Origin: Pseudomonas laurylsulfatiphila
GTDB taxonomy: Bacteria; Pseudomonadota; Gammaproteobacteria; Pseudomonadales; Pseudomonadaceae
Assembly (NCBI RefSeq): GCF_002934665.1
Contig: NZ_NIRS01000002.1
Span: 868,001 to 932,000 of the forward strand
Length of the DNA: 64,000 nt
Reading direction: 5' to 3'
This document shows, piece by piece, positions 38,089 to 61,459 of this stretch. The stretch's first letter is position 1, and each line of letters opens with the position of its first letter. Position numbers and translations under genes: made by a program. The notes under the pieces were generated by a model that searched no databases, had not been told where the DNA came from, and saw only the letters and a program-made list of their open reading frames with translations.

Positions 38089-38385
38089 TCAGAGCGGCGC
38101 CACGCCTTCGACAATGATGACCTCAGCCAAAGCCACCCCCTCACGATACCCCCGCGCCTCCTGATACAACGCCGAGTGATAACAAGCCACCGCCTGCTCA
38201 TAGGAATCAAACTCGATCACCACACTGCGCTGCGGCGTCGCCCGACCTTCCATCGCCTCGCTACGCCCACCCCGCGCCAGAATCCGACCGCCATACAGGG
38301 CAAACGCCTGCGGCGCCCGCCGGGTGTATTGGCTGTATTGATCAGGGTCAGTGACATCCACGTGAGCAATCCAGTACGCCTTCAT
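38089..38385 (-). CDS. DUF1330-family small protein
   Basis: A 98-residue dimeric alpha+beta barrel protein: MKAYWIAHVDVTDPDQYSQYTRRAP at the start, FALYGGRILARGG and VVIEFDSYEQAVACYHSALYQ in the body, all DUF1330 hallmarks. No enzymatic activity is established for this family. It is divergent from the RibB-like gene, with the operator at 38409-38425 lying between their starts, so both are likely controlled by the same regulator. Confidence 0.88.
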   Translation of the reverse strand: MKAYWIAHVDVTDPDQYSQYTRRAPQAFALYGGRILARGGRSEAMEGRATPQRSVVIEFDSYEQAVACYHSALYQEARGYREGVALAEVIIVEGVAPL

Positions 38386-38408: not shown

Positions 38409-38425
38409 ATTATGGTATACCAAAT
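38409..38425. promoter_or_regulatory. TGGTATACCA operator 1
   Basis: ATTATGGTATACCAAAT between divergent DUF1330 and RibB-like genes, 24 bases from the first start and 31 from the second. Core TGGTATACCA is a perfect 10-bp palindrome. One of five related sites in this window. Confidence 0.75.
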
Positions 38426-38455: not shown

Positions 38456-39565
38456 ATGGCCTTCAACAGCATCGAAGAAATCATCGAAGATTACCGCCTC
38501 GGCAAAATGGTCCTGCTGGTCGACGATGAAGACCGGGAAAACGAAGGCGACCTGCTGCTGGCCGCCGACTGCTGCACACCCGAGGCGATCAGCTTCATGG
38601 CCCGTGAAGCCCGTGGCCTGATCTGCCTGACCCTGACCGACGAACACTGCAAACGCCTGGGCCTGGAACAAATGGTGCCTAGCAACGGCAGCGTGTTCAG
38701 CACCGCGTTCACCGTGTCCATCGAGGCTGCCGTTGGCGTGACCACCGGGATCTCCGCCGCCGATCGTGCCTGCACCGTGGCCGCCGCCGTCGCCGCCAAC
38801 GCCGGCCCCGCCGACATCGTGCAACCGGGCCACATCTTCCCGCTGCGCGCCCGGGAAGGCGGTGTGCTGACCCGCGCCGGCCACACCGAAGCCGGTTGCG
38901 ACCTGGCCCGCCTGGCCGGCCATACGCCCGCCTCGGTGATCGTCGAAGTGATGAACGACGACGGCACCATGGCCCGCCGCCCCGACCTGGAAGTGTTCGC
39001 GCACAGGCACGGAATCAAGATCGGCACCATCGCCGACCTGATCCACTACTGCCTGAGCACCGAACACACCATCGTGCGCATCGGTGAACGTGATCTGCCG
39101 ACGGTGCACGGCACCTTTCGTCTGATCACCTTTGAGGATCGCATCGAAGGCGGTGTCCACATGGCCATGGTCATGGGCGATCTGCGCCGTGAAGAGCCGA
39201 CATTGGTGCGCGTGCATGTGATCGATCCGTTGCGCGACCTGGTTGGCGCCGAATACAGCGGGCCGACCAACTGGACCTTGTGGGCCGCCTTGCAGCGTGT
39301 CGCCGCCGAAGGCCACGGCGTGGTGGTGGTGCTGGCCAATCACGAATCCTCCCAGGCGCTTCTGGAACGTGTGCCGCAATTGACCCAGCCGCCCCGGCAG
39401 TTCAGCCGTTCGCAGTCGCGGATTTATTCGGAAGTCGGCACCGGCGCGCAGATCCTGCAGAACCTGGGTGTCGGCAAGCTGCGCCACCTCGGTCCGCCGT
39501 TGAAATATGCGGGTTTGACCGGGTATGACCTGGAGGTGGTGGAGAGTATTGCGTTCACCGAATGA
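38456..39565 (+). CDS. ribB: 3,4-dihydroxy-2-butanone-4-phosphate synthase with degenerate GCHII-like domain
   Basis: A 369-residue RibBA-like protein. The N-terminal DHBP synthase domain (1-205) is intact: DDEDRENEGDLL near residue 24 and HIFPLRAREGGVLTRAGHTEA near 125. It makes the four-carbon precursor of riboflavin from ribulose-5-phosphate. The C-terminal GTP-cyclohydrolase-II-like half has no zinc cysteines where the family has its SxRCDC cluster (here VIDPLRDLVGAEYSGPT), so GTP hydrolysis is unlikely. It sits under the TGGTATACCA operator, suggesting inducible flavin supply, in addition to the housekeeping rib genes expected elsewhere. Confidence 0.88.
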   Translation: MAFNSIEEIIEDYRLGKMVLLVDDEDRENEGDLLLAADCCTPEAISFMAREARGLICLTLTDEHCKRLGLEQMVPSNGSVFSTAFTVSIEAAVGVTTGISAADRACTVAAAVAANAGPADIVQPGHIFPLRAREGGVLTRAGHTEAGCDLARLAGHTPASVIVEVMNDDGTMARRPDLEVFAHRHGIKIGTIADLIHYCLSTEHTIVRIGERDLPTVHGTFRLITFEDRIEGGVHMAMVMGDLRREEPTLVRVHVIDPLRDLVGAEYSGPTNWTLWAALQRVAAEGHGVVVVLANHESSQALLERVPQLTQPPRQFSRSQSRIYSEVGTGAQILQNLGVGKLRHLGPPLKYAGLTGYDLEVVESIAFTE

Positions 39566-39762: not shown

Positions 39763-39790
39763 TTTGGAATACCATAATATGATATTCCAT
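39763..39790. promoter_or_regulatory. TGGTATACCA-type operator 2
   Basis: TTTGGAATACCATAAT is the exact reverse of the operator at 53675 (ATTATGGTATTCCAAA). A second half GATATTCCA follows, giving a wider TGGAATA...TATTCCA palindrome. It lies about 100 bases upstream of the ABC transporter binding-protein gene. Confidence 0.7.
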
Positions 39791-39886
39791 AGACCGGACA
39801 GTCAGCACTGACTCGACGGACCTACTGCTCCCGATAGGCGGGCACTCGAAGGCCCCGCTCATAAACACAACAATGAGGGCGTGAAA

Positions 39887-40912
39887 ATGGTGTTGAACAA
39901 ACGTGCGACCGCGGTTCTTTTTGCGGGACTGCTGAGCGTCACCAGCCAGGCATTGCTGGCGGCTGAAAGCGTCAACTTCGTGAGTTGGGGCGGCAGCACC
40001 CAGGATGCGCAAAAGCAGGCCTGGGCCGATCCGTTCAGCAAGGCCAGCGGCATCACCGTTGTGCAGGATGGCCCGACCGACTACGGCAAGCTCAAGGCCA
40101 TGGTCGAAAGCGGCAACGTGCAATGGGACGTGGTCGATGTCGAAGCCGACTTCGCCCTGCGCGCCGCCTCCGAAGGCTTGCTCGAACCCCTCGATTTCAA
40201 AGTCATTGACCGCGACAAGATCGACCCGCGCTTCGTCAGCGATCACGGCGTCGGCTCGTTCTTCTTCTCCTTCGTCCTCGGCTACAACGAAGGCAAGCTC
40301 GGCGCCAACAAGCCTCAGGACTGGTCCGCGCTGTTCGACACCAAGACCTACCCCGGCAAACGCGCCCTCTACAAATGGCCAAGCCCTGGCGTGCTCGAGC
40401 TCGCGCTGCTGGCCGACGGTGTAGCGGCGGACAAGCTCTACCCGCTGGACCTGGACCGCGCGTTCAAGAAACTCGACACCATCAAGAAAGACATCGTCTG
40501 GTGGGGCGGCGGCGCGCAGTCGCAGCAACTGCTGGCCTCCGGTGAAGCGAGCATGGGCCAGTTCTGGAACGGCCGGATTCATGCCCTGCAGGAAGACGGC
40601 GCCCCGGTCGGCGTAAGCTGGAAACAGAACCTGGTCATGGCCGACATCCTGGTCATTCCCAAGGGTTCGAAAAACAAGGACGCGGCGATGACGTTCCTGG
40701 CCAACGCCAGCAGTGCCAAGGGCCAGGCCGACTTCTCCAACCTGACCGCCTACGCCCCGGTCAACGTCGACAGCGTGGCGCGCCTGGACTCGGCGCTGGC
40801 CCCGAACCTGCCGACCGCCTACGCAAAGGATCAGATCACTCTTGATTTCGCATACTGGGCCAAGAACGGTCCGGCCATTGCGACACGGTGGAACGAATGG
40901 CTGGTCAAATGA
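39887..40912 (+). CDS. ABC transporter substrate-binding protein, PotD/polyamine-like
   Basis: A 341-residue periplasmic binding protein (signal about 1-25, ...SQALLAAES). The VNFVSWGGSTQDAQKQAW start and the DYGKLKAMVESGNVQWDVVDVE segment place it in the spermidine/putrescine/opine binding group (PotD/AgaA-like). A Trp-rich motif IVWWGGGAQSQQLLASGEASM resembles ligand-site loops of that group. ATG at 39887 has GAGGG seven bases upstream. First gene of a four-gene importer operon, downstream of operator 2. The true ligand is unknown. Confidence 0.88.
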   Translation: MVLNKRATAVLFAGLLSVTSQALLAAESVNFVSWGGSTQDAQKQAWADPFSKASGITVVQDGPTDYGKLKAMVESGNVQWDVVDVEADFALRAASEGLLEPLDFKVIDRDKIDPRFVSDHGVGSFFFSFVLGYNEGKLGANKPQDWSALFDTKTYPGKRALYKWPSPGVLELALLADGVAADKLYPLDLDRAFKKLDTIKKDIVWWGGGAQSQQLLASGEASMGQFWNGRIHALQEDGAPVGVSWKQNLVMADILVIPKGSKNKDAAMTFLANASSAKGQADFSNLTAYAPVNVDSVARLDSALAPNLPTAYAKDQITLDFAYWAKNGPAIATRWNEWLVK

Positions 40913-41853
40913 AAATGACGGCAACCGCGCCTCGTCCTTCCACGGCCTCCGGGAGCGCCATCGGCGCTGCCGGTTCGGCAGTCGGCCAGACCGTTGCAAA
41001 GCAACCCTCGCCATCGCTGAAGCAGCGTTGGCGTGGCGCCAGTAACCTGGTCCCCGCCCTGCTGTTTCTCGGCCTGTTCTTTCTCGCGCCGCTGATTGGC
41101 CTGCTGCTGCGCGGCGTGCTGGAACCGGTGCCGGGCCTGGGCAACTACGAGCAACTGTTCGCCAACTCGGCCTATGCCCGGGTCCTGCTCAATACCTTCT
41201 CGGTGGCGGGCCTGGTGACGCTGTTCAGCCTGCTACTGGGCTTCCCGCTGGCCTGGGCGATCACCCTGGTGCCGCGCGGCTGGGGGCGCTGGATTCTCAA
41301 CATCGTGCTGTTGTCGATGTGGACCAGCCTGCTCGCCCGCACCTACTCCTGGCTGGTGTTGCTGCAAGCCTCTGGGGTGATCAACAAGGCGTTGATGGCG
41401 ATGGGCATCATCGATCAACCGCTGGAGATGGTGCACAACCTCACCGGCGTGGTGATCGGCATGAGCTACATCATGATCCCGTTCATCGTGCTGCCGTTGC
41501 AGGCGACCATGCAGGCCATCGACCCGATGATCCTGCAGGCCGGTTCGATCTGCGGCGCCAGCCCCTGGACCAACTTCTTCCGGGTGTTCCTGCCGCTGTG
41601 CCGGCCGGGGCTGTTCTCCGGTGGCCTGATGGTGTTCGTGATGTCCCTCGGTTACTACGTGACCCCGGCGCTGCTGGGCGGTGCGCAGAACATGATGCTG
41701 CCCGAGTTCATCATTCAGCAGGTGCAATCGTTCCTCAACTGGGGCCTGGCCAGCGCCGGCGCCGCGTTGTTGATCGTGATCACGCTGGTGCTGTTCTACT
41801 TCTACCTGAAGCTCCAGCCGGAATCCCCGGTTGGCGCCAGCAACGCGAGGTAA
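40909..41853 (+). CDS. ABC transporter permease, PotB-like
   Basis: A 314-residue inner-membrane permease with about six segments. The cytoplasmic EAA loop is seen in QAGSICGASPWTNFFRVFLPLCRPGLFSG. Its N-terminus has an Ala/Ser/Pro-rich extension of about 45 residues before the first membrane segment. The start is taken as the ATG at 40909, overlapping the binding-protein stop (ATGA); ATG at 40915 or GTG at 40888 remain possible. Confidence 0.87.
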   Translation: MKMTATAPRPSTASGSAIGAAGSAVGQTVAKQPSPSLKQRWRGASNLVPALLFLGLFFLAPLIGLLLRGVLEPVPGLGNYEQLFANSAYARVLLNTFSVAGLVTLFSLLLGFPLAWAITLVPRGWGRWILNIVLLSMWTSLLARTYSWLVLLQASGVINKALMAMGIIDQPLEMVHNLTGVVIGMSYIMIPFIVLPLQATMQAIDPMILQAGSICGASPWTNFFRVFLPLCRPGLFSGGLMVFVMSLGYYVTPALLGGAQNMMLPEFIIQQVQSFLNWGLASAGAALLIVITLVLFYFYLKLQPESPVGASNAR

Positions 41854-41859
41854 GCCGTC

Positions 41860-42669
41860 ATGCTCCTGACCCCCAATGCCATGAGCCGCCGGATGCGCTT
41901 CGGCCTCTATGCCACCACCGGGCTGATCGGTCTGTTCCTGCTGCTGCCGATCGTGTTCATCGTGCTGCTGTCGTTCGGATCGTCGCAATGGCTGGTGTTC
42001 CCGCCGCCGGGCTGGACGCTGAAATGGTACGGCCAGTTCTTCTCCAACGCCGACTGGATGAACGCGGCGATGGCCAGCCTCAAGGTCGCGGTGCTGACGA
42101 CGTTCTTCGCCGTCGCGTTGGGCTTGCCGACCGCGTTCGCCCTGGTGCGCGGCCGCTTCCCCGGCCGGGAAATGCTCTACGGCCTGTTCACCCTGCCGAT
42201 GATCGTGCCCCTGGTGATCATCGCCGTGGCGGTGTACGCGCTGTTCCTGAAACTGGGCTACACCGGGACCATGTTCGCCTTCGTGGTCAGCCATGTGATC
42301 GTGGCGTTGCCGTTCACCATCATCTCGATCATCAACTCGCTGAAGCTGTTCGATCAGTCGATCGAGGATGCGGCGGTGATCTGCGGCGCCTCGCGCCTGC
42401 AAGCGGTGTTCAAGGTGACCTTCCCGGCGATCCGCCCGGGCATGGTTGCCGGTGCCCTCTTCGCCTTCCTCGTCTCGTGGGATGAAGTGGTGCTGAGCGT
42501 GATGATGGCCAGCCCGACCCTGCAAACCCTTCCCGTGAAAATGTGGACCACCCTGCGCCAGGACCTGACGCCCGTGATCGCCGTCGCCTCGACGTTGCTG
42601 ATCGGCCTCTCGGTATTGGTCATGGTGATCGCCGCCGCTCTGCGCCGGCGCAACGAAATCAGCGCTTGA
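41860..42669 (+). CDS. ABC transporter permease, PotC-like
   Basis: A 269-residue inner-membrane permease, the second channel subunit of this importer. Six membrane segments are predicted, and the EAA loop is DAAVICGASRLQAVFKVTFPAIRPG. It begins six bases after the first permease gene and is followed 16 bases later by the ATPase gene. Confidence 0.88.
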   Translation: MLLTPNAMSRRMRFGLYATTGLIGLFLLLPIVFIVLLSFGSSQWLVFPPPGWTLKWYGQFFSNADWMNAAMASLKVAVLTTFFAVALGLPTAFALVRGRFPGREMLYGLFTLPMIVPLVIIAVAVYALFLKLGYTGTMFAFVVSHVIVALPFTIISIINSLKLFDQSIEDAAVICGASRLQAVFKVTFPAIRPGMVAGALFAFLVSWDEVVLSVMMASPTLQTLPVKMWTTLRQDLTPVIAVASTLLIGLSVLVMVIAAALRRRNEISA

Positions 42670-42685: not shown

Positions 42686-43840
42686 ATGAGTGCAGTGATC
42701 AAAGATTCCGCGCAGCAAAATGACAAACCCTTGGTCAGCCTGCGTAACCTGAACAAGCACTACGGCGACTTCGCCGCCGTGGACAACATCTCGCTGGACA
42801 TCAAGGACGGTGAATTCCTCACCTTCCTCGGCTCCAGCGGCTCGGGCAAAAGCACTACGCTGTCGATGCTTGCCGGCTTCGAAACGCCGAGCAGCGGCGA
42901 GATCCTGGTCAACGGCCAGTCGCTGGTCAACGTGCCGCCGCACAAACGCGACATCGGCATGGTGTTCCAGCGCTACTCGCTGTTCCCGCACCTGTCCGTG
43001 CGCGACAACATCGCCTTCCCACTGGCCATTCGCAAACTGGCCACGGCCGAACGCGAACGCCGGGTCGATGCAATGCTCAAGCTGGTGCAGCTTGAGCAAT
43101 TCGCCCATCGCCGCCCTTCGCAACTGTCCGGTGGCCAGCAGCAACGCGTCGCCATCGCCCGCGCACTGGTTTACGAACCACGCATTTTGCTGATGGACGA
43201 ACCCCTCGGCGCGCTGGACAAAAAACTGCGCGAAGACTTGCAGGATGAACTGCGCCAGCTGCATCGGCGCCTGGGCATCACCATCGTCTACGTGACTCAC
43301 GATCAGGAAGAAGCCATGCGCCTGTCCCAGCGCATCGCGATCTTCAGCCACGGCAAGATCGTTGGCCTGGGCAGCGGTTATGACCTGTACCAGAATCCGC
43401 CGAACGCCTTTGTCGCCTCGTTCCTCGGCAACTCCAACTTCCTCAAGCTCAAGGCCCAGGGCAATGCGGTGGCGACCTTCGAGGGGCAACCGCTGTCGAT
43501 CCGACTCACCGCCAGCCTGCAAACCGACCAGGACGTGCTGCTGATGGTGCGCCCGGAAAAAGCCCTGGCCCTGAGCAACGAACAAGCCCTCGCCGAACCG
43601 CTGGCCGCCGGCTGGAACGAAGTCTCGGCCAAGGTCGTGGAAGTGTTGTTCCTCGGCGAAAGCCAGACCTGCAGCGTGATCACTGCCGGCGGCACCTCGA
43701 TGACGGTCAAGGCACTGTCCGCCGCCGGTATGCCGCTCAAGGCGGGCGACCCGGTGCGGGTGCGTTGGGCCACCGCCGACGCCTGCGTCTACACCGAATG
43801 GGCCGAAAGCGACCTGAACAAGGCTGCCGGCGCTCACTGA
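42686..43840 (+). CDS. ABC transporter ATPase, PotA-like
   Basis: A 384-residue ATPase for the polyamine-type importer. Walker A GSSGSGKST, signature LSGGQQQR, Walker B ILLMDEPLGALDKKLRE and switch His VTHDQEEA are intact. A C-terminal TOBE domain (about 290-375, MVRPEKALAL...) is typical of PotA/FbpC-type importers and often regulatory. AGGAGTACGAC lies before the ATG. The operon ends at a strong terminator about 45 bases on. Confidence 0.92.
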   Translation: MSAVIKDSAQQNDKPLVSLRNLNKHYGDFAAVDNISLDIKDGEFLTFLGSSGSGKSTTLSMLAGFETPSSGEILVNGQSLVNVPPHKRDIGMVFQRYSLFPHLSVRDNIAFPLAIRKLATAERERRVDAMLKLVQLEQFAHRRPSQLSGGQQQRVAIARALVYEPRILLMDEPLGALDKKLREDLQDELRQLHRRLGITIVYVTHDQEEAMRLSQRIAIFSHGKIVGLGSGYDLYQNPPNAFVASFLGNSNFLKLKAQGNAVATFEGQPLSIRLTASLQTDQDVLLMVRPEKALALSNEQALAEPLAAGWNEVSAKVVEVLFLGESQTCSVITAGGTSMTVKALSAAGMPLKAGDPVRVRWATADACVYTEWAESDLNKAAGAH

Positions 43841-45985: not shown

Positions 45986-45988
45986 TGA

Positions 45989-46290: not shown

Positions 46291-46302
46291 TTTCCGGGAT
46301 TT

Positions 46303-47301: not shown

Positions 47302-47373
47302 GGGTTGATCATCCGGGGGTTGCCAGTACGTGAAAGCGACTCTAACGTGACTGGATATTACCGACTAACGCCG

Positions 47374-48174: not shown

Positions 48175-48210
48175 TCACTGCACCTTCAATCTTTGTTGCC
48201 TGTCAGTCAG

Positions 48211-48370: not shown

Positions 48371-48379
48371 TTTCCGGTG

Positions 48380-49480: not shown

Positions 49481-49710
49481 GGATCATTTCCCCAAGTGTG
49501 GCGTGAGTTCGATGGTTTTTATGTTCTGTACACGGCAGCGGCCTTGAAAATTGCCAAGGGTAAGGAAGTGAAGTTTCTGGTTGTGATTCTTGCCGAGGGC
49601 GTGACCGGTTCACAGCGTGAGTCAGGCCAAAAGGAGATCGAAACGGCCAAAATACCTGTCCGCATTGATCAGCGATGCGACAGTGCGGCGGCCAGCCCAT
49701 GAATCGATTT
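49481..49710. other. Upstream region of the polyamine-binding gene
   Basis: About 230 bases with no credible gene and no clear operator, presumably the promoter region of the binding-protein gene. Confidence 0.4.
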
Positions 49711-49802
49711 TTGTGGGAGCGAGCCTGCTCGCGAAAGCGGTGTATCAGACACATTGATGTCGACTGGCACACCGTCTTCGCGAGCAGGCTCGCTCCCACA
49801 GG
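49711..49802. repeat. REP doublet
   Basis: TTGTGGGAGCGAGCCTGCTC and its facing complement around a 43-base centre. Confidence 0.85.
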
Positions 49803-49816
49803 GGGGATGTGCGTGA

Positions 49817-51142
49817 TTACAGCAATGACAAGGTGTAATTGATGATGAACCGGCTCTGGTCCACATTGCGGCCGGCGTCGGTGTTCGATTTGGCATTACG
49901 CAGTGTGAACCCCACCCCTTTGAACGTGCCCGACTGCAACACGTAGTCCAGGGTCATGTCGCGCTCCCATTCGGACTGATCGCTGGCGTTTTGTGCCTTG
50001 ATGTCCGTGCCCTTCAGATACGCGATCGAGGCTTTCAGGCCCGGCACGCCCATGGGCGCGAAGTCGTAGGTGTATTGCCCGAAGTTCGTCTGCTCTCCGG
50101 CGCGTGCAAAGTTCTGGATCATCTTGTCGGTGGGCAGGTAGACACTGCCGCCGCCCGCCCCTTTGTCCACCAGGCTGCCCTGGTTGGGCTGGACGAAGTT
50201 GCTGCCGTCGCCCACCCGTTGATGACCCACCGACACCGCATGCCCGCCATGGGTGTAAGTGAGCATCGCCACCCAGGTGCTGTTGTCGATTTCACCGTCG
50301 TTGTCGTCGGTGTATCCGGATACCCGATAACCTTGCGCGCGGCCAGAGGCTGAGTTATTGACACCGCTGGACGTGGTGCGGAAGTAGCGCAGGTCGGTGG
50401 TCAGTGAGCTGGCGCTGTCGATGGACAGAATGTGCGTCAGGCCGAGAAAGCTCTGGTTGTAGAAATCTTCCAGCTGCGCGAAGTAATACTGCGTCTTGAG
50501 ACTTTTGGTGAGGTTGTAGTCAGCACCGGCGTAGTAGAACTTGTTGCTGTCCTGGGTGCTACCGGCGACTGACAGGCCTGTACGGTCGGTCGAGGCGCGC
50601 CCTACCGCGTGCTCCAGCACACCGCTGGTCAACGTCAGGCCTTCGATGTCGTTCGAGGTGACCTGCGCACCGGTAAACGATTGCGGTAACACACGCGCAT
50701 CGTTGGCCAGCAGGATCGGCAACTTCGGCAGCAAGGTGCCGTAGCGAAATTCAGTCCTGGCCAGGCGCATCTTCGCCGTGGGGCCGAAGCTGCTCCAGGT
50801 GTCGGCCGCGCCGTCGCCGTCGGAAGGAATCATGCCGCTACCGACGTGGCGCCCCGCTCCGCTGTCCAGCGTGATGCCGAGCAATGCCTGGGCATCGAGC
50901 CCGAACCCTACCGCGCCCTGGGTGAACCCGGACTCATAGCGCAACACGAAGCCTTGGGCTGACTCTTCGGTTTTCGAAGGCTCCGCTGCGCCATCGCGAT
51001 TGTCGCTGTTGAAGTACAGGGTGCGCATCGACAGGCTGGCCTTGCTGTCTTCGAGAAAACCATGGGCGGCGGAATCGGCGGCCTGTGCACACAGCGAACC
51101 GGTGGCCAACAGGACTGCGGTGGGAATCGCGCGTTTGAACAT
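49817..51142 (-). CDS. OprD-family outer-membrane porin
   Basis: A 441-residue porin with signal peptide MFKRAIPTAVLLATGSLCAQA. OprD hallmarks are present: HGFLEDSKASLSMRTLYFNSDNR at the mature N-terminus, YESGFTQGAVGFGLDAQALLGI, and a C-terminal INYTLSLL barrel strand. The family takes up small carboxylates, basic amino acids and dipeptides; the branch (OccD or OccK) cannot be fixed here. Its location upstream of a PotF-like binding protein suggests linked uptake, but a REP and a 250-base gap separate them. Confidence 0.9.
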   Translation of the reverse strand: MFKRAIPTAVLLATGSLCAQAADSAAHGFLEDSKASLSMRTLYFNSDNRDGAAEPSKTEESAQGFVLRYESGFTQGAVGFGLDAQALLGITLDSGAGRHVGSGMIPSDGDGAADTWSSFGPTAKMRLARTEFRYGTLLPKLPILLANDARVLPQSFTGAQVTSNDIEGLTLTSGVLEHAVGRASTDRTGLSVAGSTQDSNKFYYAGADYNLTKSLKTQYYFAQLEDFYNQSFLGLTHILSIDSASSLTTDLRYFRTTSSGVNNSASGRAQGYRVSGYTDDNDGEIDNSTWVAMLTYTHGGHAVSVGHQRVGDGSNFVQPNQGSLVDKGAGGGSVYLPTDKMIQNFARAGEQTNFGQYTYDFAPMGVPGLKASIAYLKGTDIKAQNASDQSEWERDMTLDYVLQSGTFKGVGFTLRNAKSNTDAGRNVDQSRFIINYTLSLL

Positions 51143-51490
51143 AGGGTGCTCCTGGGTGTTTCTTATCGTTATTTGAAGGTTTCACTGCCAGGCAGGCCCT
51201 GATTGCCGCCCACGCCACAGCGCTCAACACGAGTGCGACAACAGGCGCGCTCGATGAGTGATGTGAATCGTTCGAGGTGAGGGTTTACTGGCTGGCTTGT
51301 GAAACTCTTAAAACATTTCGGCAGGCTATTATCAAACGCGGTGAAAGTAGTTTTCGTAGAGGGATACGGCTTGTCGCGCAGGGGTATGGACGATCACAGT
51401 TTTTGAATATCGGTGCGGCGGATTTTCATCATACTGACCTCATCGGCAGTGTTCGCTGGCTGCCTGTGGGTCACCCAAGGAGCAATGCCC
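51143..51490. other. Intergenic region between divergent porin and GST genes
   Basis: A 348-base region with no credible gene, repeat or strong operator that I can support. Promoters of the two divergent genes are expected here. Confidence 0.4.
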
Positions 51491-52111
51491 ATGAACGATC
51501 GGATAGAGCTGTTCGGCGCCAATACCGGCAACAGTCTGCGGGCCGCGATCGCCCTCGAAGAGTCGGGCATCGCCTACACGGCACGCAGGCTCGACCTGTA
51601 TGCACAGGAGCACCGCGGGCCGGACTACCTGGCGCTCAACCCGGCCGGGAAAGTGCCGACCCTGATCGATCACGGGACGACGCCGATGCTGGTCATCAAC
51701 CAGTCCAACGCCATCATCCAGTACGCCGACTCCATTGCCCCCGGAAAGCTGGCACCGGCGCAGCCGGGACCTGTGCGCACCCGAGTGATCGACCGCTATT
51801 TCTTTTTCGTGACCGATGTCATCGCCCCCAGCCATGCCGCGTTTTTCCTGCACAAGGAAGGGCAGGACAAAGCGGCGGCGATCATCGATCTGCGGGTGAT
51901 CGAACAACTGACCTACTCGGAAAGTTTTTTGACCGGCGAATTCATGGCCGGCGAACAGTTTTCCATGGCCGACATTTCGGCGTTCACCATTACCATGGCA
52001 TTCCGTGACCGGCTGGACTGGAAGCTGCTTCCACAGCTATCGCGCTGGTTCGACACGGTCGAAGCCAGGCCGGCGGTACAACGCGGCTTGAATGTGTTCA
52101 AGCATTCCTGA
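51491..52111 (+). CDS. Glutathione S-transferase family protein
   Basis: A 206-residue GST. The thioredoxin-like N-domain has NSLRAAIALEESGIAYTARRLDL, NPAGKVPTLIDHG with cis-Pro, and INQSNAIIQYAD as the glutathione site. The helical domain contains FSMADISAFTITMAF. AAGGAG at 51477-51482 gives better spacing to the ATG at 51491 than to the one at 51485. Convergent with the NCS1 permease gene, with a shared terminator. Substrate unknown. Confidence 0.86.
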   Translation: MNDRIELFGANTGNSLRAAIALEESGIAYTARRLDLYAQEHRGPDYLALNPAGKVPTLIDHGTTPMLVINQSNAIIQYADSIAPGKLAPAQPGPVRTRVIDRYFFFVTDVIAPSHAAFFLHKEGQDKAAAIIDLRVIEQLTYSESFLTGEFMAGEQFSMADISAFTITMAFRDRLDWKLLPQLSRWFDTVEARPAVQRGLNVFKHS

Positions 52112-52181: not shown

Positions 52182-53594
52182 TCAATCGGTGTAGCCGAAC
52201 GTCACCGCACGGCTTTCCTGCGCCTGGCTTCGCGTAGCGAGGCAGTAGTACAACGGGCATGTCACCACCAGCCCCACCAGCCACGACAGGTCCGCACCGT
52301 CCACCAGATTGGCGTACGGCCCGACATACAGTGAAGTGTTGGCGAATGGCAACTGCACGATGATGCCGATGAAGTAGGCGATGATTGCGTGCAGGTTGAA
52401 GCGCCCGTAGATGCCGCCGTCCGCGCGGAAGATCGAGGCGATGTCGTAGCGGCGACCCTTGATCAGGTAGAAGTCGATCAGGTTGATCGACGCCCAGGGC
52501 ACCAGCACCAGCAGCAGCGCCAGAATCAGGCCGATGAACTGCGAAATGAAGTTCGCCGAGGCACCCAGCGCCACCACGCAACAACCCGCCAGGACGATGC
52601 CCGACAACACCACGCGCACTTTGATGCTCGGCGTCCACTGGCTGGCGAAGGTCTGGATCGAGGTGATGATCGACAGCACCGCGCCATACAGATTCAGGGC
52701 GTTGTGGCTGATGATGTTGAGCAGGAACAGCACCATCAGGATCGGCCCCAGCCAACCGGTGGACTGCTTGACCGCCGCCATCGCCTCGGTGCCTTCGGGC
52801 GTCGCCAGTACCGCCACGGCACCGAAGGTGAACGACAGGATCGTGCCCAGGGTCGCCCCCAGGTAAGTGGCGAAGAACGGCCGGGTGATGCCGATGTCCG
52901 CCGGCAGGTAACGCGAGTAGTCCGACACATACGGCGAGAAGCTGATCTGCCAGATGATGCCCAGCGAGACCGTGGCCAGCCAGCCCGACAGGTTGAACCC
53001 GCCGCGAGTGAAGAAGTCCGCCGGCAGGTCATGGGCGAAGATATAGAGGAAACCGGCGAGCAACGCGCTGCCCATGACCCAGGTGCCGATGCGGTTCAGG
53101 GTGTGGATGAAGCGATAACCGATCACCCCGATGGCCGTGGCGCTGAGGGCACCGATCAGAATGCTCGCCGGCACCGGAACCGACGGCGCAATGCCGACGA
53201 TCGATTTGCCTGCCAGCACGATGTTGGAGATGAAGAAACCGATGTAGATCAACGCGGCGAAGAACACGATCAGCAGCGCGCCATAGCGGCCGAACTGACC
53301 ACGACTCTGGACCATCTGCGGAATGCCCATGCACGGCCCCTGGGCCGACGCCAGCGCAATCACCACACCGCCGACCATGTGCCCGAGGGCAATTGCCAGC
53401 AGGCCCCAGAACAGATTGAGGTGGAACACCTGGACCACCATGGCGCCGGTGACGATGGGCAGTGGCGCGATGTTGGTGCTGAACCACAGGGTGAAAAGAT
53501 CGCGGGCCTTCCCATGGCGCTCTGCGAGTGGAACGTAGTCGACCGTGTGGTTCTCGATCAACGGATCTTGCCGGGACATCTGGGACATGTGCAT
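52182..53594 (-). CDS. NCS1-family permease, first copy
   Basis: A 470-residue permease with about twelve segments. The NCS1 family (CodB, PurP, Mhp1-like) imports nucleobases, hydantoins, thiamine or allantoin with Na+ or H+. LWFSTNIAPLPIVTGAMVV, SYSRYLP-like SDYSRYLPADIG and ASINLIDFYLIKGRRYDI are family blocks. It is 81 bases downstream of operator 3. Its likely job is uptake of the compound attacked by the monooxygenase encoded divergently. Paralogue of the gene at 56686. Confidence 0.9.
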   Translation of the reverse strand: MHMSQMSRQDPLIENHTVDYVPLAERHGKARDLFTLWFSTNIAPLPIVTGAMVVQVFHLNLFWGLLAIALGHMVGGVVIALASAQGPCMGIPQMVQSRGQFGRYGALLIVFFAALIYIGFFISNIVLAGKSIVGIAPSVPVPASILIGALSATAIGVIGYRFIHTLNRIGTWVMGSALLAGFLYIFAHDLPADFFTRGGFNLSGWLATVSLGIIWQISFSPYVSDYSRYLPADIGITRPFFATYLGATLGTILSFTFGAVAVLATPEGTEAMAAVKQSTGWLGPILMVLFLLNIISHNALNLYGAVLSIITSIQTFASQWTPSIKVRVVLSGIVLAGCCVVALGASANFISQFIGLILALLLVLVPWASINLIDFYLIKGRRYDIASIFRADGGIYGRFNLHAIIAYFIGIIVQLPFANTSLYVGPYANLVDGADLSWLVGLVVTCPLYYCLATRSQAQESRAVTFGYTD

Positions 53595-53674
53595 GAACTC
53601 GAGTTTGTCTGTTCTTATCTTTGTATGAAGCCAAACCGGGAGGACTCTCTGGCCGCCCCTCAGATGCGGACCAT

Positions 53675-53690
53675 ATTATGGTATTCCAAA
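53675..53690. promoter_or_regulatory. TGGTATACCA-type operator 3
   Basis: ATTATGGTATTCCAAA, 81 bases upstream of the NCS1 permease start. It is the reverse complement of operator 2, over 16 bases. Confidence 0.75.
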
Positions 53691-53847
53691 CTTTAAACAA
53701 GACTGATCCGGTCTTTGAACAAGCCTCTGATCCGGTATCCTGCCCGATTCACGCCCACATTTGCTAGCTAATAGCCCCGTAATCATTGGGCTTCCGACGA
53801 CAGCCGTACGTTTATCGGTTCCCTCAAAAAGACCTTGCAATCGATGT

Positions 53848-53862
53848 ATTACGGTATACCAT
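53848..53862. promoter_or_regulatory. TGGTATACCA-type operator 4
   Basis: ATTACGGTATACCAT, 50 bases upstream of the flavin reductase start. The rest of the 53691-53911 gap shows a doubled TGATCCGGT but no gene. Confidence 0.75.
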
Positions 53863-53911
53863 CAGACCTACAAACACATAAAAACGCGTCACACCACCCG
53901 AGGACCGTCCA

Positions 53912-54397
53912 ATGATCGATGCCGCCATCTACAAACAAGTCATGGGCTCGTTCCCGTCCGGAGTGACCGTGATCACTACACTGGATGAAGATGGGCAAAT
54001 CGTCGGCCTGACCGCCAGCGCCTTCAGCTCGTTGTCGATGGACCCGGCCCTGGTGCTGTTCTGCCCCAACTACAGCTCCGACTCCTACCCGGTCCTGATC
54101 AGGAACAAACGTTTTGCGATCCACGTGCTTTCCGGCGGCCAGCAAAGCGAAGCCTATGCCTTCGCGCGCAAAGGCAAGGACAAGGCCCAGGGGATCGAGT
54201 GGACGCTCAGCGAGTTGGGCAACCCGATCCTGGCCAACGCCACGGCGGTCATCGAGTGCGAGTTGTGGCGCGAATACGAAGGCGGCGACCACGCCATCAT
54301 GGTCGGCGCGGTGAAAAACCTGATCGTGCCCCAACAGAGCAGCGGGCCACTGGTGTATTGCCACGGCAAGATGGGTGCCCTGCCCGTCCTGGCCTGA
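53912..54397 (+). CDS. Flavin reductase (FMN-binding split barrel)
   Basis: A 161-residue flavin:NAD(P)H reductase of the HpaC/RutF type. FPSGVTVITTLDEDGQIVGLTASAFSSLSMDPALVLFCPN is the flavin-binding block, and LVYCHGKMGAL lies near the C-terminus. These enzymes supply reduced FMN to partner monooxygenases by diffusion. GAGGA lies upstream of the ATG. The luciferase-like monooxygenase gene follows after about 170 bases, with its own copy of the same operator, so the two form a two-component system. Confidence 0.9.
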   Translation: MIDAAIYKQVMGSFPSGVTVITTLDEDGQIVGLTASAFSSLSMDPALVLFCPNYSSDSYPVLIRNKRFAIHVLSGGQQSEAYAFARKGKDKAQGIEWTLSELGNPILANATAVIECELWREYEGGDHAIMVGAVKNLIVPQQSSGPLVYCHGKMGALPVLA

Positions 54398-54404
54398 CCA
54401 TTGG

Positions 54405-54481
54405 AAAGATCGCAGCCTGCGGCAGCTCCTACAGGGGGCAACGCATCTCGTTGTAGGAGCTGCCGAAGGCTGCGATCTTTT
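54405..54481. repeat. REP doublet, 'GTAGGAGCTGCC' family
   Basis: AAAGATCGCAGCCTGCGGCAGCTCC and its complement around a short centre, between the flavin reductase and monooxygenase genes. Confidence 0.85.
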
Positions 54482-54495
54482 GCCCCTCAATACAT

Positions 54496-54512
54496 ATTAT
54501 GGTATACCAATA
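54496..54512. promoter_or_regulatory. TGGTATACCA operator 5
   Basis: ATTATGGTATACCAATA, 54 bases upstream of the monooxygenase start, nearly identical to operator 1. Confidence 0.8.
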
Positions 54513-54565
54513 ATCAACAGGCCCGCAGTCGACAGGCCAACAACAAAAGATCCGAGGTAAGCGTC

Positions 54566-55609
54566 ATGAAGTTTTCCCTGTTCGTACACATGGAACGTTG
54601 GGACGAAAGCGTCAGCCACCGCCAGTTGTTCGAAGACCTGACCGAACTGACGCTGATGGCCGAAGCCGGTGGTTTCAGCACCGTGTGGATCGGCGAACAC
54701 CACGCCATGGAGTACACCATTTCGCCGAGCCCGATGCCGTTGCTGGCTTATCTGGCGGGCAAGACCACTACCATTCACCTCGGTGCTGGCACCATCATCG
54801 CGCCGTTCTGGCATCCGCTGCGGGTGGCCGGTGAATGCGCGTTGCTCGACGTGATCAGCAACGGCCGCATGGAAGTCGGCCTGGCCCGTGGCGCCTACCA
54901 GATCGAGTTCGACCGCATGGCCGGCGGCATGCCAGCCTCCTCCGGCGGCCAGGCGTTGCGGGAAATGGTTCCGGTGGTGCGGGCCTTGTGGAACGGCGAC
55001 TACGCCCATGACGGCGACATCTGGAAATTCCCCACCTCCACCAGCGTGCCCAAGCCGATCCAGCAGCCGAACCCGCCCATGTGGATCGCCGCCCGCGACC
55101 CGGACTCGCACAACTTCGCGGTGGCCAACGGCTGCAACGTCATGGTCACGCCGCTGATGAAAGGCGACGAGGAAGTCCTCGACCTGAAGAACAAATTCCA
55201 GGCCGCCCTGGACAACAACCCGGACGTGCCGCGCCCGCAACTGATGGTGCTGCGTCACACCCACGTGCACACCGCTGACGATCCAGAAGGCTGGAAAGTC
55301 GGGGCCAAGGCGATCTCGAAGTTCTATCGCACCTTCGATGCCTGGTTCGGCAACAAGACCACCCCGGTCAACGGCTTCCTCGCGCCGAGTCCGGAAGAGA
55401 AGTTCGCCGGTCGCCCCGAGTTCGAACTCGAGAGCCTGCACAAGACCGCCATGATCGGCACCCCGGAAGAAATCATTCCGCGCATCAAGTACTACCAGGA
55501 ACTGGGCGTGGACGAATTCAGCTTCTGGTGCGATAACAGCCTGCCCCACGCGGAGAAGAAAAAATCCCTGGAGCTGTTTATCAAGCATGTGGTGCCAGCG
55601 TTCCGCTGA
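54566..55609 (+). CDS. LLM-class flavin-dependent monooxygenase
   Basis: A 347-residue bacterial-luciferase-like TIM-barrel enzyme that uses reduced FMN and O2. LTLMAEAGGFSTVWIGEHHA at residues 30-50, the IGEHH motif, and GAGTIIAPFWHPLRVAGECALLDVISNGRMEVGLARG are class hallmarks. MIGTPEEIIPRIKYYQELGVDEF is the C-terminal block. GAGG precedes the ATG at 54566. Paired with the flavin reductase just upstream. Not closely like SsuD or RutA in length or motifs that I can see, so substrate is unassigned. Confidence 0.9.
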   Translation: MKFSLFVHMERWDESVSHRQLFEDLTELTLMAEAGGFSTVWIGEHHAMEYTISPSPMPLLAYLAGKTTTIHLGAGTIIAPFWHPLRVAGECALLDVISNGRMEVGLARGAYQIEFDRMAGGMPASSGGQALREMVPVVRALWNGDYAHDGDIWKFPTSTSVPKPIQQPNPPMWIAARDPDSHNFAVANGCNVMVTPLMKGDEEVLDLKNKFQAALDNNPDVPRPQLMVLRHTHVHTADDPEGWKVGAKAISKFYRTFDAWFGNKTTPVNGFLAPSPEEKFAGRPEFELESLHKTAMIGTPEEIIPRIKYYQELGVDEFSFWCDNSLPHAEKKKSLELFIKHVVPAFR

Positions 55610-55631
55610 TTGCGCCGCCCTGCGACATCAA

Positions 55632-55748
55632 CTGTAGGAGCGAGCTTGCTCCGGGCGGCGTTCCGACGATGGACGCCAACGATAACGCGGGCCATCTGAA
55701 TGAACGCGTTGTCCAGAGTTTTTCGCGAGCAGGCTCGCTCCTACAGGG
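55632..55748. repeat. REP pair
   Basis: CTGTAGGAGCGAGCTTGCTC at left and GCGAGCAGGCTCGCTCCTAC at right, with a spacer containing CCAACGATAACGCGGG. Confidence 0.8.
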
Positions 55749-55759
55749 GGTCGATTTCC

Positions 55760-55912
55760 ATGTTCACTGATCGTCTCCCATCACGTGCCCTCCCCTCCGG
55801 CGCCGCGCGGGCTTATCTGCGCGGTGAATGGACCGCCTCGCACCTGCATTTCAAGCGTCTGCGCGCCAGCGTTTCGGCCAAGCAGAACGGCTTCTGGCAA
55901 ATAGTTCACTGA
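55760..55912 (+). CDS. Possible 50-residue protein, unknown
   Basis: ATG at 55760 opens MFTDRLPSRALPSGAARAYL..., ending FWQIVH. Codons mostly end in G or C, like neighbouring genes, which favours coding, but the ribosome site is weak. Basic, with no membrane segment or motif. Lies between the monooxygenase and cysteine hydrolase genes, and may be a small protein or the remnant of a gene. Confidence 0.35.
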   Translation: MFTDRLPSRALPSGAARAYLRGEWTASHLHFKRLRASVSAKQNGFWQIVH

Positions 55913-56002
55913 GCCCACCCGAACAGCCAATCACGCACCCCGCGTCTCGCCATGGCCTGGCGCGTGCGGTGTCTTGTATTCGCCTTTGATCAGGTTTGCC
56001 CA

Positions 56003-56680
56003 ATGAACAATAACAACGCGCTGTTGATCATCGACATGCAGCAGGAGGACGCTTTCGTCCTGGAAAACTTCGATAGGGTGCTCGCCCATACCGCCACCCT
56101 GCTCGATAGCGCCCGCCATCAGCGGATGCCTGTCATCTATACCCGCCACATCAATCAGGCCGACGGCAGTGACCTGCCCCACGGCGAACCCCTGGCCGCC
56201 GACGGTGGCCCCGGCGGTTACCGCGCCGGCACCCGGCAAGTGGAAATCATCGAGTCGCTGACACCGCAATCCGGTGAATTGATCATCGACAAGGGCCGTT
56301 ACAGTGCCTTTCACCGCACCGACCTCGATGCCCGACTCAGGGCCATGGAGGTCGACACGCTGATCGTCTGCGGCGTGTTGACCGACGTCTGCGTACTGAC
56401 CAGCGTGTTCGATGCCTTTGCCCTGGGCTATCGCGTACGCCTGGTCAGCGATGCCTGCACCACGACCACCGAGGCCGGGCATTATTCGGCCCTGCTGATC
56501 ATGGCCAACTGGGTCTACTCGCTGGAAATCCTCACCACGACCGAATGCCTGCGCGCCCTGGAACAGCGCGACTACCTGAGCCTGATCCCCGAGCGCCCGG
56601 ACCTGTTTGCCCACCAGCCCCATGAGCTGCAAAGCACCATCGCCCGTCTGCAATCCCGTCTCGTCCGGACTCAGGAGTGA
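56003..56680 (+). CDS. Cysteine hydrolase, isochorismatase fold (RutB/nicotinamidase-like)
   Basis: A 225-residue amidohydrolase of the isochorismatase superfamily. The Asp-Lys-Cys triad is visible: Asp in ALLIIDMQ, Lys in IIDKGRYSAFHRTDL, and Cys in VCGVLTDVCVLTSVFDAFALGY. Such enzymes hydrolyse amides or ureido acids (RutB, nicotinamidase, maleamate amidase). It could act on the ring-opened product of the monooxygenase (inference). Ribosome site is weak (AGG nearby). The NCS1 permease gene starts six bases after it, so both are one operon. Confidence 0.88.
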   Translation: MNNNNALLIIDMQQEDAFVLENFDRVLAHTATLLDSARHQRMPVIYTRHINQADGSDLPHGEPLAADGGPGGYRAGTRQVEIIESLTPQSGELIIDKGRYSAFHRTDLDARLRAMEVDTLIVCGVLTDVCVLTSVFDAFALGYRVRLVSDACTTTTEAGHYSALLIMANWVYSLEILTTTECLRALEQRDYLSLIPERPDLFAHQPHELQSTIARLQSRLVRTQE

Positions 56681-56685
56681 TCGCC

Positions 56686-58038
56686 ATGCAAGTCGAAAAA
56701 AGAAGCATCGATTTCATCCCCGAAACCGAACGCCACGGCAAGCCGGGTTCGCTGTTCTATATCTGGTTCGGCGCCAACATGAACATCACCACCATCGCCT
56801 CCGGCGTGTTGCCGGTGGTGATGGGGCTCAACCTGTTCTGGAGCGCCCTGGCGATCATCGTCGGCTCGTTGCTGGGGGCGATTTTCATGGCCTCCCACTC
56901 GGCCCAGGGACCGAAGCTGGGCATTCCGCAAATGATCCAGAGCCGGGCGCAATTCGGCGTGCTGGGGGCGGTGTTGCCGCTGCTGTTCGTGATGCTGATT
57001 TACCTGGGCTTCTTCGTCAGCAACACCTTGCTCGCGGCCCAGGCGCTGGAGTCCGTCAGCCCGCTGCCGATGTCCGGCAACATCTACCTGATCGGCGCGT
57101 TGTGCTTCGTCGTCGCTCTCTATGGCTATCGGTTGATTCACCGTTTGCAGAAGCTGCTGTCGATCCTGTCGCTGGTGGTGTTCGTGGCCGCCACGGTGCT
57201 CGCCTTGCAGTTGCCGATCCCGGCCGAACAATGGCTGCCGACCGGCTTCTCGTTGTCGAAGTTCCTGGTGGCGGTGAGCATCGCCGTGACCTGGCAACTG
57301 TCCTACGCGCCTTACGTCGCCGACTACTCGCGCTACCTGCCGAGCAATACGCCGACCGCCCAGGTGTTCTGGTACAGCTACGCCGGCACGGTCAGCGGTG
57401 GTGCGTGGATGATGATTCTCGGGGCGATCCTGAGCGTCGGCATCGGCGACTTTTCCAGCAACGTCGGCGGGCATGTCGCCGGTTTGTTCGGCACTGGTGC
57501 GGTGCTGCTGTTCGCCTTCATCGTCTATGGCCAGGTGTCGATCAACGTGTTCAACCTGTACGGCGCGTTCATGTCAACCATCACCGTGATCGAGCCTTTC
57601 GCCCGACTCAAGGTGACGCCGCGGGTGCGCGGTGTGTTCATGCTGCTGATCAGCCTGGTGGCCACGGCCCTGTGCACCATCAGTCAGGACGACTTCATCA
57701 ACTTCTTCCTGAACTTCATCTTCTTCATGAGCTACTTCCTGATCCCGTGGACGGCGATCAATCTGGTGGACTACTACTGCCTGCGCAAAGGGCAGTACCG
57801 GATTGACGACATCTTCGACCTGGACGGGATCTACGGGCGGGTCAACCGGATTGCCTGCGGCAGTTTCCTGCTGGCGATCGCCCTGGAAATTCCGTTCATG
57901 AACACCACGCTGTACGTCGGCCCGGTGGTCACGGCGCTGGACGGGGTGGATCTGGCGTGGGTTGTCGGGTTGCTGGTGCCGGCGGTGAGTTATTACTGGC
58001 TGATGAAAATGAACGCGCGCGTCAGCGTACCTGCTTAG
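56686..58038 (+). CDS. NCS1-family permease, second copy
   Basis: A 450-residue permease with about twelve segments, paralogous to the one at 52182. IWFGANMNITTIASGVLPVV, SAQGPKLGIPQMIQSRAQFG, APYVADYSRYLPSN and WTAINLVDYYCLRKGQYRIDD are NCS1 blocks. CAGGAG lies eight bases upstream of the ATG at 56686. Co-transcribed with the cysteine hydrolase. Two different NCS1 permeases in one locus suggest uptake of both a parent compound and an intermediate, or of two related substrates. Confidence 0.9.
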   Translation: MQVEKRSIDFIPETERHGKPGSLFYIWFGANMNITTIASGVLPVVMGLNLFWSALAIIVGSLLGAIFMASHSAQGPKLGIPQMIQSRAQFGVLGAVLPLLFVMLIYLGFFVSNTLLAAQALESVSPLPMSGNIYLIGALCFVVALYGYRLIHRLQKLLSILSLVVFVAATVLALQLPIPAEQWLPTGFSLSKFLVAVSIAVTWQLSYAPYVADYSRYLPSNTPTAQVFWYSYAGTVSGGAWMMILGAILSVGIGDFSSNVGGHVAGLFGTGAVLLFAFIVYGQVSINVFNLYGAFMSTITVIEPFARLKVTPRVRGVFMLLISLVATALCTISQDDFINFFLNFIFFMSYFLIPWTAINLVDYYCLRKGQYRIDDIFDLDGIYGRVNRIACGSFLLAIALEIPFMNTTLYVGPVVTALDGVDLAWVVGLLVPAVSYYWLMKMNARVSVPA

Positions 58039-58057: not shown

Positions 58058-58197
58058 AAAAGATCGCAGCCTGCGGCAGCTCCTACAAAGGGTGAGACGT
58101 GCATCCCTGTAGGAGCTGGCGAAGCCTGCGATCTTTTTTCCTGCGGAGTAATCACCGTTGGACGGCAAAAAGAATCGGAGCCTGCGGCAGCTCCTTG
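58058..58197. repeat. REP cluster
   Basis: A facing pair of GCAGCCTGCGGCAGCTCCTA-type cores at 58058-58140 and a single core at 58160-58197. Confidence 0.8.
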
Positions 58198-58230: not shown

Positions 58231-58450
58231 TCTCGACTGATCATCGAGGGAGGGCTCTGAAAGGCGCGCAGCTCCTCAGGCGTTAAGCCTGCAACAACGT
58301 AGCAGGCTAATTACCGGATGCATCCTACAAAGCACACGGAAACGTCCTATTTGTAACTAAATCAACTTCGCCAAAGCTATGCAGCCCCAGGACCGGGGCG
58401 CTAACGCAGCTCTTCCTGCTCGCCCCCATTCAGACCAGGAAGGCCTGACC

Positions 58451-59113
58451 ATGCTCACCCAACTGTCCACCCTCTTCGATGACAGCCACCTCAACCGCTG
58501 GGGCCGTAACCTCGACCATGGTCCCGATGTCCTCGCCCTCCCCGGCAGCAAACGCCTTGCCCACCCCTTCACCCATCACGTCGAACGGCTTATGCCGAGA
58601 TTGTCATCCGCTACGTATCCGCTGTCCTTGTTCTGCGTTCTGGTCGGTACGTTGTTCGCTCAAAGCACCCAGGCTGGCACGCTTGAAGCCGTCAATCACA
58701 CCCACTGGGCCATCAATCGATTCAGCGTTGAGGGTCGTTCGGGGATCGACATCATTGGGCCGTACCAGGGCGGGGGTGGGGGGTGTTGTTACAGCGCGCC
58801 GTCGCGCTGGAAGTCGGGGATGACGGTGCGTGTTGATTGGGAGACTGGGGTGGCCTATCCCGACGGTTTTCCCGGTTTTGCCGATGAAGCTAAATACGAC
58901 GCTTGGGCAGAACAAATAAGGACTCAAAAACGCAAACACAGCCAAATAGTCCCCGTCCCGGACTACTCCGGCCAGAAAACCTGCGGCCTCACCGTGCACT
59001 TCCTGCCCTGCGATGACCTCCTGGTCACCACCTCTTGTTACGCCTACGGCAGCCCCGAATACCCGATCAAAACCCCATTGCACTTGCCGGAGCCTCAGTC
59101 ATGTCCGAAGTGA
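58451..59113 (+). CDS. DUF3304 protein, first copy (probable T6SS immunity), N-terminally extended
   Basis: A 220-residue frame. Residues from about 80 (LEAVNHTHWAINRFSVEG) to the end (LPEPQSCPK) are a DUF3304 domain with GGGGGCC and two Cys-containing strands. A signal-like segment (LSLFCVLVGTLFAQSTQA) lies at about residues 57-75, so the first 47 residues (MLTQLSTLFDD...) look added on. GGAAGG supports translation from 58451; ATG at 58592 would place the signal at the N-terminus. DUF3304 genes beside DUF2235 effectors are candidate immunity proteins (inference). Overlaps the effector gene by 13 bases. Confidence 0.8.
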   Translation: MLTQLSTLFDDSHLNRWGRNLDHGPDVLALPGSKRLAHPFTHHVERLMPRLSSATYPLSLFCVLVGTLFAQSTQAGTLEAVNHTHWAINRFSVEGRSGIDIIGPYQGGGGGCCYSAPSRWKSGMTVRVDWETGVAYPDGFPGFADEAKYDAWAEQIRTQKRKHSQIVPVPDYSGQKTCGLTVHFLPCDDLLVTTSCYAYGSPEYPIKTPLHLPEPQSCPK

Positions 59114-61422: not shown

Positions 61423-61459
61423 CTCGGTGGTTCGACACTCGGTAAAAGGATCAAAAACC

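Follow-up and report, generated by a model that had tools for sequence, protein, structure and literature searches.

Trigonelline (N-methylnicotinate) is a common plant compound, and the gene cluster for its degradation in Acinetobacter baylyi, tgn, was reportedly described by Perchat et al. in 2018. The pathway ends in succinate, methylamine, formate and CO2. In the locus of the type strain (L023) we read the gene row as GntR, F, D, A, B, C, NCS1, a porin-like gene and E, all labels, porin-like included, being our own. The trigonelline ring is described as being opened by the TgnA/TgnB oxygenase system (PMC8269262), and TgnF, a member of the DUF1185 family, as assisting TgnE in A. baylyi (PMC7913881). 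Here we analyzed a 64,000-nt stretch of Pseudomonas laurylsulfatiphila DNA (the window) from a genome of 6.7 Mb (G000, the own genome), in which five genes around a luciferase-like flavin-dependent monooxygenase (LLM) probably form the entry half of a trigonelline catabolic regulon, with the rest at a second locus. The system is of a known kind, in a diverged and extended form.

A sequence-only reading of the window had grouped these five genes into one locus, and all five were confirmed as open frames with good coding statistics:

52182..53594, minus strand: NCS1 permease a, probable trigonelline importer, 53% identical to the NCS1 permease of the A. baylyi tgn cluster
53912..54397, plus strand: TgnA-like short flavin reductase, 161 amino acids, 37% identical to A. 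baylyi TgnA over 130 amino acids
54566..55609, plus strand: TgnB-like LLM, 347 amino acids, probable ring opener, 50% identical to A. baylyi TgnB
56003..56680, plus strand: isochorismatase-fold cysteine hydrolase, putative accessory amidohydrolase, with D11, K97 and C130 invariant in five aligned relatives
56686..58038, plus strand: NCS1 permease b, beside the isochorismatase-fold gene in 16 of 17 loci

Family searches with the five proteins returned Transp_cyt_pur (twice), Flavin_Reduct, Bac_luciferase and Isochorismatase, again as proposed. The window holds a two-component flavin monooxygenase of the TgnA/TgnB type and an NCS1-type permease as in A. baylyi; permease b is 35% identical to the same A. 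baylyi protein. The outline drawn earlier, namely uptake, flavin-dependent oxidation and opening of an N-heterocycle and hydrolysis of the opened amide, fits the logic of trigonelline breakdown well. The label of a putative new oxidative pathway finds no support: the oxygenase, the reductase, the permease and the operator correspond to those of the known tgn system, and the steps that the window lacks are encoded elsewhere in the genome. Imperfect inverted repeats, which we take to be of the REP (repetitive extragenic palindromic) type, were read from the sequence at 54402-54480, between the reductase and LLM genes, and at 58060-58140 and 37490-37760.

The strongest link to tgn is a shared operator, the palindrome TATGGTATACCATA, which was defined from the window alone before relatives were examined for it. 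The window contains the following sites:

38411..38424, no strand: operator site, 1 mismatch, between the DUF1330 and RibBA genes
39763..39776, no strand: operator site, 2 mismatches, upstream of the ATP-binding cassette (ABC) importer, in tandem with the site at 39778
39778..39791, no strand: operator site, 2 mismatches, upstream of the ABC importer
53677..53690, no strand: operator site, 2 mismatches, upstream of NCS1 permease a
53850..53863, no strand: operator site, 2 mismatches, upstream of the flavin reductase
54498..54511, no strand: operator site, 2 mismatches, upstream of the LLM gene

These six sites with at most 3 mismatches compare with 0.29 expected and with a maximum of one in any of 100 shuffles. 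With at most 2 mismatches the palindrome was found at seven places across the own genome, versus two for the reversed pattern, and the operator regulon postulated from the letters of the window is real. The seventh site (G000:C1:674947) stands before a DUF1185 gene, tgnF, and it was because of this site that the second half of the pathway was located there (L015; G000:C1, approximately 675-681 kb), on another contig than the window. The genes at this second locus are, in order, DUF1185 (PF06684; F), alpha/beta hydrolase (D), aldehyde dehydrogenase (C), a second short flavin reductase, succinate-semialdehyde dehydrogenase (E) and a GntR/FCD regulator (R). Contig C1 has 1,297,429 bases, which, given a correct assembly, places some 600 kb or more between the two loci. 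Compared with their A. baylyi counterparts, F is 55% identical, D 34%, C 52%, E 71% and R 35%. Homologs of TgnC, TgnD, TgnE and TgnF are found here behind the same operator as the genes of the window, together with a GntR-type regulator, and the operator is common with A. baylyi, where copies precede tgnF (1 mismatch) and, by 105 bp, tgnE (0 mismatches). The second reductase gene (L015, 15958-16440), 3' of tgnC, encodes a protein 73% identical to the window reductase, and in all 22 loci with tgnC, own included, a short reductase gene at 71-75% is its neighbor.

Outside the genus, 88 named loci were collected as the best matches to an Acinetobacter LLM, with plasmid hits added, and because of this choice the set leans toward canonical clusters. 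All but two of them (L051 and L069, which have no TgnF match) entered an operator test that covered Acinetobacter, Burkholderiaceae, Rhodobacterales, Rhizobiales and others. In 84 of these 86 loci the 200 bp preceding the TgnF match contain the operator (at most 3 mismatches), in 18 of them with 0 mismatches; the same test on shuffled stretches, which keep base composition only, was positive in 0.8%. The two loci lacking it are those of Arthrobacter (L011) and Sulfitobacter (L078). In 770,701 bases comprising the window, the second locus and 40 stretches of relatives, 109 sites were counted versus one for the reversed pattern, and the flanks of this set widen the palindrome to about GTATTATGGTATACCATAATAC. 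The GntR protein of the second locus is the candidate that would bind TATGGTATACCATA.

The own set is alike to A. baylyi tgn in its LLM and flavin reductase, NCS1 permease, DUF1185 protein, alpha/beta hydrolase, two aldehyde dehydrogenases, GntR regulator and operator palindrome, and in having a DUF1330 homolog nearby. It differs in that the LLM belongs to another clade, the reductase is short and present in two copies, the cluster is spread over two contigs, and RibBA, an ABC importer and an isochorismatase/NCS1 pair are added, whereas the A. baylyi set has the gene that we labeled porin-like within the cluster. In another Acinetobacter record (L017, 4.09 Mb, labeled as an A. baumannii plasmid and by its size probably a chromosome), a gene that we take to be transposase-like interrupts the tgn cluster at 14443-15318, where it separates the porin-like gene from tgnE. 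The cluster on Arthrobacter dokdonellae plasmid pDCT5 (L011) likewise contains an LLM, a GntR regulator, two DUF1185 proteins, a hydrolase, an aldehyde dehydrogenase, a succinate-semialdehyde dehydrogenase, an NCS1 permease and a flavin-supply gene (riboflavin kinase), and its LLM, 79% identical to that of the window, is the nearest found outside the genus. Unlike the own set, it has tautomerase and NUDIX genes and no TATGGTATACCATA operator, and no RibBA or isochorismatase match was found in the stretch.

Co-occurrence was determined in 199 genomes of the genus, own included, for the LLM, TgnF (E <= 1e-40), RibBA (E <= 1e-190), the amidase and the isochorismatase (E <= 1e-60), with a limited number of candidates scored per genome and with kinship ignored in all counts. 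The LLM was found in 112 of the 199 genomes, two of them with partial matches (G046 and G080). TgnF matches were present in 116 genomes, including all 112 with the LLM; the four others are G044 and G119 (a 52% paralog), G058 (a partial match) and G076 (a draft of about 650 contigs). From 24 further LLM genomes, which were hand-picked and not random, the neighborhoods were fetched. The LLM and tgnF genes lie within 25 kb of each other in 18 of the 24 (G084, where they are 33 kb apart, was left out of the 18). LLM, RibBA and tgnF share one cluster of about 20 kb in 11 of the 24, and in seven of the 18 RibBA is found at another place in the genome. The full plan (L133, L136 and L139) reads F-D-C-reductase-(E)-R, then DUF1330 divergent from RibBA and the ABC importer, then NCS1 permease a divergent from reductase-LLM, followed in some by the isochorismatase and NCS1 permease b. 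In the own genome this plan is split in two, and about 8 kb of other genes lie within the window half. Gene content, shared operator, co-occurrence and cluster conservation are all seen in the sequences themselves.

The genes that follow the first three operator sites of the window, and the divergent one, are:

38089..38385, minus strand: DUF1330 protein, with a homolog beside tgn genes in 59 of the 88 named loci
38456..39565, plus strand: RibBA paralog (3,4-dihydroxy-2-butanone-4-phosphate synthase / GTP cyclohydrolase II-like), probable flavin supply, by family match
39881..40912, plus strand: ABC importer substrate-binding protein (SBP_bac_8; weakly polyamine-type), by family match
40888..41853, plus strand: ABC importer permease 1, start uncertain
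41860..42669, plus strand: ABC importer permease 2
42686..43840, plus strand: ABC importer ATPase

The regulon includes RibBA, DUF1330 and the ABC importer. The RibBA paralog (its query started one codon upstream of the ATG) was found in 108 of the 112 LLM genomes versus 1 of the 87 others. The ABC genes follow RibBA in 17 of the 19 stretches with RibBA, window included, and homologs of the binding protein stand near tgn in 24 of the 88 named loci. The roles of the three in the pathway are putative: the RibBA paralog would probably supply flavin to TgnAB, a function that is apparently new in a tgn regulon. The sequence-only reading had assigned a RibB-like enzyme, the ABC importer and a large amidase to the same operator regulon or its surroundings. 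For RibBA and the importer this was borne out by the sites upstream, and the RibB linkage, the more original half of the remark, is further supported by the co-occurrence.

The amidase (44270-45985) did not keep its place. Its best operator candidate within 400 bp upstream has 5 mismatches, and no operator was found before it in the four LLM-less genomes fetched. It is present in 180 of the 199 genomes, in 105 of 112 with the LLM and 75 of 87 without (Fisher p 0.09), which gives no clear association. A loose link may still exist, since no more than about 11 kb separates the gene from the LLM in at least eight LLM genomes of the 112 (G000, G016, G021, G029, G047, G074, G084 and G162). Lacking an operator and a clear co-occurrence, the amidase was rejected as a pathway enzyme and is probably a bystander outside the regulon.

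In the mechanism that we favor, trigonelline would be taken up by NCS1 permease a and possibly by the ABC importer too. The flavin reductase would pass reduced flavin to the LLM, which would open the pyridinium ring (the TgnA/TgnB step), and TgnC (aldehyde dehydrogenase), TgnD (alpha/beta hydrolase) and TgnE with TgnF (succinate-semialdehyde dehydrogenase and its DUF1185 helper) would complete the degradation. Most likely, the TgnR-like GntR/FCD protein acts on TATGGTATACCATA as a repressor of the units, with repression lifted by trigonelline or an intermediate; the RibBA paralog would be co-induced and raise flavin supply, and the isochorismatase/NCS1 pair would perhaps import and hydrolyze an amide relative of trigonelline. 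Both the substrate and the direction of regulation are inferred.

Several observations weigh against this assignment. In a tree of 49 LLM proteins the window LLM falls into a Pseudomonas/Arthrobacter group (18 rows, support 100/97), and the canonical group with A. baylyi TgnB is separate (24 rows, 99/99), with long branches between them; the type II rows are weakly held (55/20). These supports are from the tree without an outgroup, and the same picture was obtained with a distant outgroup, which fell among the Pseudomonas rows. Since the window LLM lies outside the canonical TgnB clade, its substrate can only be one that we infer. The TgnD and TgnR homologs are just 34-35% identical to their counterparts, and the window reductase is a short form without a match to the C-terminal half of A. 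baylyi TgnA (310 amino acids). The Arthrobacter cluster with the nearest LLM has no operator. For a dehydrogenase-like gene adjacent to A. baylyi tgn, which we take to encode an N-methylglutamate dehydrogenase of methylamine assimilation, no strong match was found in the own genome (best 35%). A glutamine-synthetase-like gene near the window end was considered as the methylamine entry and rejected, as it scored below the listed model cut-offs. The family also holds more than one system: a set of paralogs with an LLM at 39-40% was found in four of the 199 genomes, two of which also have the window type, and Caballeronia pedi (L032) carries two adjacent tgn-like sets, a canonical one with an LLM at 82% and a set of a different type with an LLM at 56%. 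Finally, the authors of PMC10890144 point to other studies with differing results on trigonelline use for their main group.

The twin sets of C. pedi suggest different substrates. The paralog set (L177, 7511-16512, L178 and L179; matches in genomes G044, G048, G119 and G129, all but G048 fetched) is arranged as F-reductase-C-LLM-D and adds a carboxymuconolactone-decarboxylase-like protein and an ABC importer of the glycine-betaine type (OpuAC); no tgn operator was found before F in L177 and L178. It looks like a sister pathway for another betaine, and it is G048 and G129 that also have the window type.

The alternative that survives best, though improbable, is that the same machinery acts on another N-substituted or unsubstituted nicotinate, or a related pyridinium compound, and leads to the same succinate semialdehyde end. 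It would account for the separate LLM group, for the low identity of the D hydrolase to A. baylyi TgnD and for the occurrence elsewhere of more than one cluster type in one genome. Canonical TgnB has 172 conserved positions, of which the window type keeps 123, the Mesorhizobium/Azospirillum/Paraburkholderia type 130 and the 39-40% paralog 101 (a count that takes in several rows from the same genomes); together with the separate group, this partial conservation would allow a shift of substrate. The window type is nevertheless better conserved than the paralog, and the operator is the same as in canonical tgn, A. baylyi included, so the inducer is presumably the same. Trigonelline use was recorded as positive in 8 of 8 P. 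syringae pathovar columns and negative for P. coronafaciens in a table of PMC6283537, and was recorded in 53 of 53 kiwifruit isolates in PMC10890144; these phenotypes belong to named strains, which may carry the window type. A. baylyi TgnB, used as a query against the 199 genomes (E <= 1e-60, up to 10 candidates scored in each), returned the window type and the four 39-40% paralogs only, so these genomes offer no other close TgnB to explain the use of trigonelline by pseudomonads. The shared operator, the downstream enzyme set and this lack of another close TgnB speak against a substrate shift, and trigonelline is the substrate that we prefer.

A Rut-like pyrimidine, PyrA-like pyridine, lactam or hydantoin pathway, which had been the idea of the sequence-only reading, is very unlikely. 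The Rut system of E. coli uses an LLM oxygenase, a flavin reductase, an isochorismatase-fold hydrolase and an alpha/beta hydrolase as parts, and the own proteins do resemble some of these: the window reductase matched RutF with 68.8 bits, the isochorismatase-fold hydrolase matched RutB with 61.1 bits, and the TgnD hydrolase of the second locus matched RutD with 88.6 bits. All three scores are below the cut-offs (254.75, 377.95 and 238.5, respectively), those for RutF and RutB far below, and no RutA model was found among the best 25 of the 30 family matches of the LLM. The permease family, the partner genes and the operator also differ from Rut, and partners and operator point to tgn. The reported absence of RutC-, RutD- and RutE-like genes was correct for the five-gene locus, where none was seen, and did not extend to the second locus with its RutD-like TgnD. 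The PyrA/PyrE pyridine pathway of Arthrobacter sp. 68b, compared here by its description, likewise opens a ring with a two-component LLM and leads to succinate semialdehyde; it is not known to include an aldehyde dehydrogenase/DUF1185 set. Family support was not found for the Rut and lactam readings, which were rejected. That the five genes are unrelated neighbors and the operator a chance palindrome is practically negligible: REP-type repeats do interrupt the block and other genes part it from RibBA and the ABC importer in the own genome, but chance fails to explain the excess of operator sites over reversed ones in the 770,701 bases or the co-occurrence and co-localization of the genes.

The isochorismatase-fold hydrolase and NCS1 permease b form a pair that is apparently a new, optional add-on to the tgn system. 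The hydrolase, in which we presume D11, K97 and C130 to be the catalytic triad, was found in 19 of the 199 genomes, all with the LLM; it is directly 3' of the LLM in 14 and elsewhere, with its NCS1 partner, in five. The one locus in which permease b was not found beside it is that of G046 (L132), where the hydrolase and the LLM are incomplete. In Paraburkholderia tagetis the pair stands beside a canonical tgn cluster, and the hydrolase gene has its own operator, with 1 mismatch, 81 bp upstream; such an operator was found in none of the ten genus loci and the P. luteola locus checked (best 5-7 mismatches). A class-wide search with the Paraburkholderia isochorismatase gave a match in 1 of 369 genomes, the own genome. 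The P. tagetis RG36 assembly contains two canonical tgn loci on two contigs (L042 and L074), with the pair at just one of them within the stretches examined. The pair stands alone on a P. luteola plasmid, and hydrolase and NCS1 permease genes are paired without tgn neighbors in L170 (8001-9881) and L172-L176. The hydrolase scored below the cut-offs of the nicotinamidase model PRK11609 (52.2 bits, cut-off 174) and of the BiuH (biuret hydrolase) model (79.7 bits, cut-off 370), as it did for RutB. We guess that its substrate is an amide that feeds into trigonelline. An amide branch in some pseudomonads and at least one Paraburkholderia, in which for example N1-methylnicotinamide would be imported by the NCS1 permease and hydrolyzed to trigonelline, combined with an operator-linked RibBA that raises flavin supply on demand, is a tentative proposal that we consider rather less than even.

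Trigonelline use, this plant betaine being routinely included in P. syringae diagnostics, parts P. coronafaciens from P. syringae (PMC6283537 and PMC10890144). If our assignment is true, this trait gets a concrete gene set, found in 112 of the 199 sampled genomes of the genus, the operator is conserved from Rhodobacterales to Pseudomonas, and three putative partner functions are added, namely RibBA, DUF1330 and the isochorismatase/NCS1 pair. A further implication would be that a catabolic regulon can take in flavin biosynthesis. The pathway itself is known, and several add-on genes behind the shared switch are apparently new. A search of full-text literature turned up, among the matches listed, no paper on Pseudomonas tgn genes, which is weak evidence of absence given the thin coverage of subscription journals.

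Scans of the window for RNA families and tRNAs found nothing, and a DNA search of part of the window against plasmids gave short matches only. Between the ABC importer and the NCS1/LLM block, at 44270-52111, the window carries the amidase, an SBF-like transporter, AraC, PotF-like, OprD and GST genes; several of these are also near tgn genes in G021, G172 and G084, among the fetched genomes. Beyond NCS1 permease b, at 58442-61978, a gene of the Tle1-like phospholipase type of the type VI secretion system lies between two DUF3304 proteins, plausibly an effector with copies of its immunity protein.

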